Part shown: one piece after another, positions 21,835-25,673 of the stretch
Numbering within the stretch: the first letter of the stretch is position 1
Layout of the letters: each line of letters starts with the position of its first letter
Assembly (NCBI RefSeq): GCF_004297265.1
Contig: NZ_SCUT01000040.1
Coordinates: 124,001-188,000, forward strand
Length of the DNA: 64,000 nucleotides
DNA from: Reyranella sp.
GTDB lineage: Bacteria > Pseudomonadota > Alphaproteobacteria > Reyranellales > Reyranellaceae
Direction: 5' to 3'
Notes under the pieces: model-generated
The model's database searches: none
What the model was told of the DNA's origin: nothing
Seen by the model: only the letters and a program-made list of their open reading frames with translations
Position numbers and translations under genes: made by a program

Positions 21835-21909
21835 GGGCGCTTAGCTCAGCGGGAGAGCACACCCTTCACACGGGTGGGGTCGTAGGTTCAATCCCTACAG
21901 CGCCCACCA
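21835..21909 (+). tRNA. tRNA-Val (anticodon CAC)
   Basis: A full cloverleaf can be folded. Acceptor GGGCGCT pairs with AGCGCCC, the D arm is GCTC...GAGC, and the anticodon stem CACCC/GGGTG surrounds loop TTCACAC with anticodon CAC. The T arm is GTAGG TTCAATC CCTAC, with discriminator A and an encoded CCA at 21907-21909. The 3' 41 bases recur at 22814-22854, marking it as an integration site. Confidence 0.95.
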
Positions 21910-21938
21910 TCTATCCTCCGGATATCATTAGATATTTT

Positions 21939-21983
21939 GGTTTCTGCCCTCTCATGCCCTCCTGCATGAGAGGGCACGAAACC
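21939..21983. repeat. 45-bp imperfect palindrome inside the tRNA element
   Basis: GCCCTCTCATG (21946-21956) and CATGAGAGGGC (21965-21975) form an exact 11-bp inverted repeat with an eight-base loop. After a short mismatch the arms extend with GGTTTC (21939-21944) and GAAACC (21978-21983). There is no T-run on either side, so it does not look like a terminator. Its place 30 bp inside the proximal attachment repeat suggests a recombinase-arm or origin-like site, or an RNA hairpin. Confidence 0.8.
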
Positions 21984-22139
21984 GCGTGAACAAGCACGGA
22001 ACATGGGGCAACGCTGGGGCAAGCGATGCCAAAGCGTTCTCATGCGCAACGGTTACGATCTCGCCCGTTGGCGCCGCATAGATCTCATCCGCTTGGTTGC
22101 CCGCAAAGTCAGCACCGCTAGCGACGCCGCTCCGCGTCG

Positions 22140-22649
22140 TCAGCGTGACTGTCGAACCGGCTCTCCCTTACCGATTTCTATCTTTGCCTTGAATTGCTCA
22201 CTTGCTTGTTTGGCAAGCTGGTCGTCGACCTTCCTGCTCGCGCCGGCAATTGAAGCATCATAAGCCCTCTTGAGAACAGCCGGGTCGGCCATCGTGGAAT
22301 TCTTCTCCAGCGCTGCCCTGAACGACTTCGCTCCATCTGGCGTCGGAACAAGGATGGGGAAGGCCTTGCCGCCTATGAGGAGCGTTGCCTCGCCATTTAC
22401 CCTCTGAAGCACCACTGGCTTCGAGCCTCCCGCACCGCCGGTGTTGGCTATAAGCGCTTCAGGAAAACACGCAAATGTGCTTACTTTGACACGCCGATTG
22501 CATTCTTCCATGGACATATCAGGGTAAGGGGCGCAGCTCTCGGAACCATGGACAACGCAACACAGCAAAACAGCATGTGCAGATGTTGCAGACAACGTAG
22601 CCATCGTCGCTGCGGCCGCAAAAGCAATAGTCCTTGCCTTGTTTCCCAT
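22140..22649 (-). CDS. Exported protein of unknown function, cargo of the tRNA element
   Basis: A 169-residue protein starting at ATG 22649 (MGNKARTIAF) behind a GGGGGAG ribosome site. It has a Sec signal peptide with cleavage after SAHA near residue 26. The mature N-terminus is Cys-rich (LLCCVV, ESCAPY, EECNRR, FACFPE), suggesting disulfides in the periplasm. The C-terminal half is helical and charged. I recognise no family. Codon use is visibly less GC-biased than in neighbours, consistent with acquisition on the element. It is the only intact gene between the repeats. Confidence 0.65.
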   Translation of the reverse strand: MGNKARTIAFAAAATMATLSATSAHAVLLCCVVHGSESCAPYPDMSMEECNRRVKVSTFACFPEALIANTGGAGGSKPVVLQRVNGEATLLIGGKAFPILVPTPDGAKSFRAALEKNSTMADPAVLKRAYDASIAGASRKVDDQLAKQASEQFKAKIEIGKGEPVRQSR

Positions 22650-22813
22650 GAACTTTCTCCCCCACCCTTCAACTGGCTGCACGGACATTTCCGGACATTT
22701 TCGCCGTGAAGCAGCTTTCAGGCGCGTACCATGCGGCGGCGTGCCGCGCCACAGGCCGTTGACGCTACCGTTACCCATGCTTGGCCGGCGAGATGACCGC
22801 GGATCAAATCGGC

Positions 22814-22854
22814 CACGGGTGGGGTCGTAGGTTCAATCCCTACAGCGCCCACCA
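22814..22854 (+). repeat. Distal attachment repeat: copy of tRNA-Val 3' end
   Basis: An exact 41-bp copy of tRNA-Val from the anticodon 3' stem through the encoded CCA. It lacks the acceptor 5' strand and D arm, so it is not a second tRNA gene. The normal chromosomal continuation, with a terminator, starts right after it. Confidence 0.92.
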
Positions 22855-22866
22855 CCGGTTTTTAAG

Positions 22867-22898
22867 GGCTCCGAGGCACTTCGCTTCGGAGCCTTTTT
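22867..22898 (+). terminator. Terminator, probably the original one of tRNA-Val
   Basis: GGCTCCGA (22867-22874) pairs with TCGGAGCC (22886-22893), followed by five T residues. It starts 12 bp after the distal tRNA repeat. This is where a tRNA-Val terminator would have stood before the element inserted. Confidence 0.75.
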
Positions 22899-23028
22899 CT
22901 TGGAAATGGGTGCACCCGGCTCATGGGTACGGCAGCCTTGCTGCCTGAAAGTCTTCGGCTGCAGAACGACGACGCCTGGTCACAAGTCAGCCGTAGCGAA
23001 TCCGCACCATGGTCCGGGACCCACGCGC

Positions 23029-25129: not shown

Positions 25130-25673
25130 CGGCATGGATGTCGTCGCGCGGCGTGCGGGCGAGGCCGAGGAGGCAATGCGGGATGCGATCGTCGCAACGG
25201 TGCGGGTAGTCGAGTACGTTTTCAGCTGGATCAGGGCTCCGGTCGGGCTGGGCAAGGTCAATCCCGGTATGAAGGTCGCCCGTACCATGCACGTCCATCT
25301 GATGGCGCCCCCATTTCTGGACTTGGAAGAACAAGCCCATCGCGGCGCGCCGGCATGGCCGCGCTTCTGGCCCTGACAACGGGGGCCAGCGGGCGTGCCG
25401 TCTCAACCGAGAGGTCGAGGGCCGAGCGCAGGCGCGCATCGGCGAACTGCTCCGCGCCAATGGCATTGCCGCCGCCGAGATCCATTCCAGCCGGCGGTGC
25501 CGCCGCCTCGACGCCGTGACACTCATGAAGCCGGGTAATGTACGCCCGCAGCCTCTACTCAATTCCTTCTTTCAGGATCGGGGCCGCGAAGCCGGGCGGC
25601 CCGCTCGCGGTTCAAGAACGGCTCCCGACCGCCTGTCGGACGGCGGACCTGCCCCCGGCGGACGAAGGCTGCT
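25130..25673. other. 544-bp stretch without a recognisable gene
   Basis: Open frames of 60-160 codons exist on both strands here, but none has a good ribosome site together with a recognisable motif, signal or family resemblance. Base composition returns to the GC-rich norm. It may hold decayed coding sequence at the edge of the accessory region. I see no inverted repeats typical of insertion sequences. Confidence 0.5.

Follow-up and report, generated by a model that had tools for sequence, protein, structure and literature searches.

Our analyses support the view that the 945-base insert at the 3' end of the tRNA-Val(CAC) gene of a Reyranella sp. is most likely foreign DNA, placed there by a recombinase that the insert does not itself encode. 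It is probably a reduced, non-autonomous integrative element, resembling a cis-mobilizable element (CIME), lodged within an accretion hotspot. The insert belongs to the window, i.e. the whole 64,000-nucleotide stretch of DNA analysed here (contig NZ_SCUT01000040.1, positions 124,001 to 188,000), and its features are collected in Table 1. This explanation is favoured by an empty site and same-site elements in related species, a left module common to several of these elements, integrases found at the same tRNA in relatives and the foreign composition of the cargo gene, whereas the lack of an actor integrase, the unlike right ends of the elements, the resemblance of the left module to plain flanks and the occurrence of its sequence doublet mostly away from integrases count against it.

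The tRNA gene is intact, and the 41 bases that end it were found again downstream as an exact copy in direct orientation, with a start-to-start spacing of 945 bp and 904 bp between the two copies; by alignment, the proximal core begins at the third base of the anticodon. The first-pass annotation of this DNA had described this repeat, which was confirmed by repeat comparison. A scan of the 6,020,389-bp window genome (25-nt core, at most one mismatch) detected these two copies and none at other loci, and a chance origin is excluded because the repeat is a 41-mer with only two genomic copies. The exactness of the repeat had furthermore been taken as a sign of recent insertion. This argument is weak, since the distal copies at the same site in other species are equally identical or nearly so, and nothing in the present data dates the event.

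Table 1. Features of the tRNA-Val(CAC) insert; positions are those of the window.
Feature	Position	Strand	Basis and remarks
tRNA-Val(CAC), intact; 3' part is the attachment site	21835..21909	+	ARAGORN
Proximal att core (attL), final 41 bases of the tRNA with CCA	21869..21909	+	Exact repeat, alignment
Left module, about 135 bp	21910..22044	+	Common to the G017 and G008 elements; putative arm
Hairpin of 45 nt, 19-bp stem	21939..21983	+	-35.2 kcal/mol, z -8.4
Direct doublet TGGGGCAACGCTGGGGCAA	22004..22022	+	Presumed integrase arm-type site
Cargo gene, 169 aa from best start, orphan	22140..22649	-	ORF; N-terminal signal peptide by eye
Distal att core (attR), identical to the final 41 bases of the tRNA	22814..22854	+	Exact repeat, alignment
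Terminator-like hairpin with T-run, 14 bp	22864..22896	+	-24.8 kcal/mol, z -5.3; 9 bp past the distal repeat

The empty site that the first-pass annotation had proposed to look for in relatives was found in five species (G029, G035, G040, G049 and G059), in which the tRNA is joined directly to the sequence that lies behind the distal copy in the window. The match across this junction amounts to 83-96% over 87-91 bp, repeat included, and a separate match spans the upstream gene and the tRNA. Apart from their left end, the 904 bp themselves were found in none of the remaining 100 genomes of the relatives set. Among 65 genomes of the genus, a second copy of the tRNA-Val 3' end was identified in the window genome (G000) and in G008, G017, G003 and G035. 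The spacing between att copies is 3846 bp in G017, 769 bp in G008 (39/41 positions identical) and 404 bp in G003, while the distal fragment of G035 lies on a separate contig (C256). In the alignment all five repeats start within the anticodon loop or stem, and the anticodon loop is one of the places at which tyrosine integrases that target tRNA genes are known to cross over (PMC4383910). For the G008 element an uninserted form is also available, in G025, which continues into the same downstream gene. The two tRNA-Val copies of G103, considered as a further element, were rejected as overlapping contig ends of one locus.

An AhpC/2OG-oxygenase gene follows tRNA-Val at a distance of about 20-70 bp in many species of the genus. 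Within the clade to which the window belongs, it is separated from tRNA-Val by other genes, which vary from species to species. The tRNA-Val(CAC) 3' end of Reyranella thereby looks like an accretion hotspot. A histidine-phosphatase gene, whole in G008, G025, G031 and G017, is matched in the window (25318-25599) over about half its length at 52%, the window copy looking decayed or replaced.

Some occupants of the site are larger than the insert described here. The 3.8-kb element of G017 holds the C-terminal fragment of an integrase with an HNH-like ORF and a Hint/intein-like fragment beside it (L035:5814-6919), and possible remnants of integrase elements were seen by eye behind tRNA-Val in G049, G029 and G059. 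One way in which the proposed reduction could have come about is in-place decay, in which a larger, integrase-bearing island lost its middle and became immobile, and we give this course a little less than an even chance. The decaying appearance of the G017 element at the same site, the commonness of possible remnants at tRNA-Val and the known origin of CIMEs by such loss (PMC5704250) all speak for it.

Searches for the recombinase itself gave a mixed outcome. Neither the ORFs nor a profile search revealed an integrase in the 904 bp, as had been stated in the earlier annotation. Seven PF00589 matches were detected in the window genome, none of them on the 211-kb contig of the insert and three at most a few kb away from other tRNA genes. 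An integrase whose attachment core matches the 41 bp was sought in that genome and not found, so that no actor is in hand; a close relative of the tRNA-Val integrases of G040 and G035 and a third copy of the tRNA-Val core were likewise not detected there. Those two relatives carry their integrases directly at the tRNA: in G040 a tyrosine integrase of 367 aa (PF00589, 5.6e-13; L074:758-1861) lies directly behind tRNA-Val, and in G035 a shorter ORF of 275 aa (L085:180-1007) is 63% identical to it over 283 positions. Both are convergent with tRNA-Val, with their 3' ends about 30 bp off and a terminator in between. In both proteins the motif that usually reads HxxR reads HTMK.

The presence of tyrosine integrases at this tRNA in relatives also bears on an origin without any integrase, in which ordinary recombination or replication slippage would have duplicated the tRNA 3' half locally, together with its flank, and the cargo would have been captured later. 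The sequences that follow the two copies in G008 are weakly related past the tRNA (score 29, against a best of 25 in 1000 shuffles), as such a duplication would predict, but the common start of all five repeats in the anticodon loop or stem and the unrelated content of the inserts join the integrases in making it very improbable.

Returning to the reduced integrative element as the favoured explanation, the elements were compared with each other by blastn. Among those of G000, G008, G017 and G003, the sole similarity resides in the first 114-135 bp of the G000, G017 and G008 elements (87% identity between G000 and G017, 77% between G000 and G008 and 78% between G008 and G017). Past this left module their contents are unrelated, the right ends have nothing in common past the core, and the G003 element is devoid of the module. 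Such a pattern bears on the decay of a larger island, in which independent events should give differing left breakpoints, whereas the common blocks of G000, G008 and G017 end alike, 114-135 bp from the tRNA. It favours a little the other course open to a reduced element, in which the insert is a passenger mobilised in trans, consisting of the att core and the left arm only, moved by helper integrases and swapping single genes: a common left module is then expected with unrelated cargo, as seen in three species. We nevertheless consider this passenger origin rather unlikely, given that a common right-arm module is lacking and that the G003 element is without the left one.

The left module, which contains a hairpin and a TGGGGCAA doublet, is presumed to be an attachment arm. 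It may in part be derived from the host instead, because it partly resembles plain tRNA-Val flanks of relatives, the hairpin being present in G025 and, more weakly, in G043. A similarity between the left module of G000 and the flank of G031 had been noticed by eye, but 27 of 1000 shuffles scored at least as high and homology is not claimed. A doublet similar to TGGGGCAACGCTGGGGCAA, AGGGGCAAAGCAGGGGCAA, occurs towards the right end of the element in G017. Across 385 alphaproteobacterial genomes, TGGGGCAA doublets with a 2-4 bp spacing gave 13 exact matches (L153-L164) against none for the reversed control; no obvious integrase was seen within 1.5 kb of these 13 doublets, several of which lie inside genes, and the idea of the doublet as a general integrase arm was consequently dropped, its matches being mostly away from integrases. 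Contig C127 of G035 (L107, 1-470) harbours a 37-bp piece of the left module with the doublet, a fragment from the C-terminus of an integrase and what seems to be an IS end, adjoining an enoyl-CoA hydratase gene; no tRNA-Val copy is found on that contig. In public collections the left junction matched no viral contig, and among public genome contigs it matched those of relatives and one from Saprospiraceae, the latter being ascribed to chance.

A single likely gene, preceded by what looks by eye like a ribosome site (GGGGGAG), occupies the 904 bp, in agreement with the one exported protein of the first-pass annotation. Judged by its signal peptide, assigned by eye, the product is probably exported or secreted; the description of this protein as Cys-rich is a modest claim, referring to a few cysteines close to the N-terminus. 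The composition of the gene sets it apart from its surroundings, with a GC content of 55% and a GC3 of 56% vs a GC content of 66% for the window and GC3 values of 77-93% in three neighbouring genes. No family was assigned to the protein in Pfam, PHROGs or NCBIfam, nor did the remaining 100 genomes of the relatives set, plasmids or viral contigs yield a relative. In 385 genomes of the class two marginal matches were obtained (32-33% identity; E 8e-4 and 9e-4 per genome), which is about the chance expectation over that number of genomes.

Each of the four small tRNA-Val inserts (those of G000, G008 and G003 and the G035 fragment) encodes a single protein in which a signal peptide or lipobox is recognisable by eye, and these four proteins look mutually unrelated, in what is a small sample. 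They correspond to the cargo gene of the window, L036:7608-8240 (G008), the L037 insert (G003) and L091 (G035 C256). The G008 cargo had been taken by eye for an SNase-like nuclease, which neither Pfam nor a PDB sequence search supported. For a passenger mobilised in trans, this recurrence of small inserts with one such protein each is a point in favour, as is the occurrence of helper-type integrases at the same tRNA in relatives. On the other hand, an identical cargo unit was never found twice in the relatives set, and the window genome offers no helper and no visible transfer route; that no unit recurs and no helper is present favours decay of a larger island. A broader proposal would see in these inserts a Reyranella family of miniature, integrase-less tRNA-Val cassettes, built on the logic of MITEs with a tyrosine integrase, in which the left module of about 135 bp and the tRNA 3' end would suffice in cis, each cassette delivering one gene for an envelope or secreted protein and being moved by the integrases of larger islands. 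We regard this proposal as speculative and unlikely.

On the two hairpins of the locus the first-pass view is weaker. The 45-bp palindrome reported earlier is real and forms a strong hairpin, but it is not peculiar to the insert, since a hairpin also stands behind tRNA-Val in relatives that have no second tRNA copy, clearly in G025 and more weakly in G043. Similarly, the distal hairpin with its T-run, previously interpreted as the displaced terminator of the tRNA, is real but may not belong to the tRNA itself. In G029, G035, G040, G049 and G059, tRNA-Val is directly followed by a related terminator. Because it separates tRNA-Val from the 3' end of the tyrosine integrase in G035 and G040 (its relatedness in G035 being established by a shuffle test), the hairpin beyond attR may instead mark the left boundary of an older integrase island. 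The reading as the tRNA's own terminator still stands, because a similar terminator occurs in G022 and G038, where the native AhpC/2OG gene lies downstream and there is no island. Taken as a whole, the first-pass view of an element integrated at tRNA-Val without an integrase gained from the empty sites and same-site inserts of relatives, while its points on the tRNA terminator and the palindrome emerged weaker. Neither of the two findings named there as refuting it was obtained, the 904 bp being missing from relatives and the repeat from other loci of the genome.

Under the explanation preferred here, a tyrosine integrase, encoded elsewhere or once in the element, would have recombined an attP containing the tRNA 3' half with the tRNA gene, through a crossover in or near the anticodon loop, rebuilding the tRNA on the left and leaving the 41-bp fragment on the right. 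The integrase gene would subsequently have been lost, or would never have been in the unit, and what remains would be the left attachment module with its hairpin and GGGGCAA doublet, one exported-protein gene and attR. We infer that the change ran towards reduction, and the unit so bounded might still be excisable. In different Reyranella species, different islands and mini-elements would have accumulated between tRNA-Val and the genes that formerly adjoined it.

CIMEs are defined as remnants of integrative and conjugative or mobilizable elements (ICEs or IMEs) which retain attL and attR and are without integration or transfer genes (PMC5704250). As far as testable, the insert fits this definition: it is bounded by attL and attR with exact 41-bp cores in direct orientation and an intact tRNA, it has a single orphan gene in 904 bp and neither integrase nor transfer genes, and it resides in an accretion site with other elements. 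It differs in being very small (0.9 kb, one gene) and in its occurrence in Reyranella. Regarding an ancestry from an ICE or IME, the same-site element of G017 keeps an integrase fragment, but no conjugation gene or site-sharing ICE or IME was identified. With Islander-type islands the insert shares the regenerated tRNA, the displaced 3' fragment in direct orientation and the anticodon-loop crossover subsite (PMC4383910), but it fails to qualify as one because an integrase gene inside the island, which the insert lacks, is their defining feature (PMC4383910). Tycheposons of Prochlorococcus and others are comparable in having cargo beside a tRNA, at a site of gain and loss based on tyrosine recombinases; they are described as tRNA-bounded cargo transposons of 4-200 kb, with a tyrosine recombinase in the examples considered (PMC10872708), as opposed to 0.9 kb and none in the insert. 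A literature search for genomic islands at tRNA genes of Reyranella retrieved no paper.

Remnant or hitchhiking elements at tRNA genes are of an already known kind, here encountered as different small inserts at the same spot in several related species. Our results highlight the 3' end of tRNA-Val(CAC) in Reyranella as a fast-changing insertion site, which provides a very small att-bounded insert together with relatives in which the site is empty, occupied by integrase-bearing elements or filled with other cargo. Should such units be mobile, a tRNA site could receive single genes that bring no mobility gene along, and they would escape island finders that rely on an integrase.
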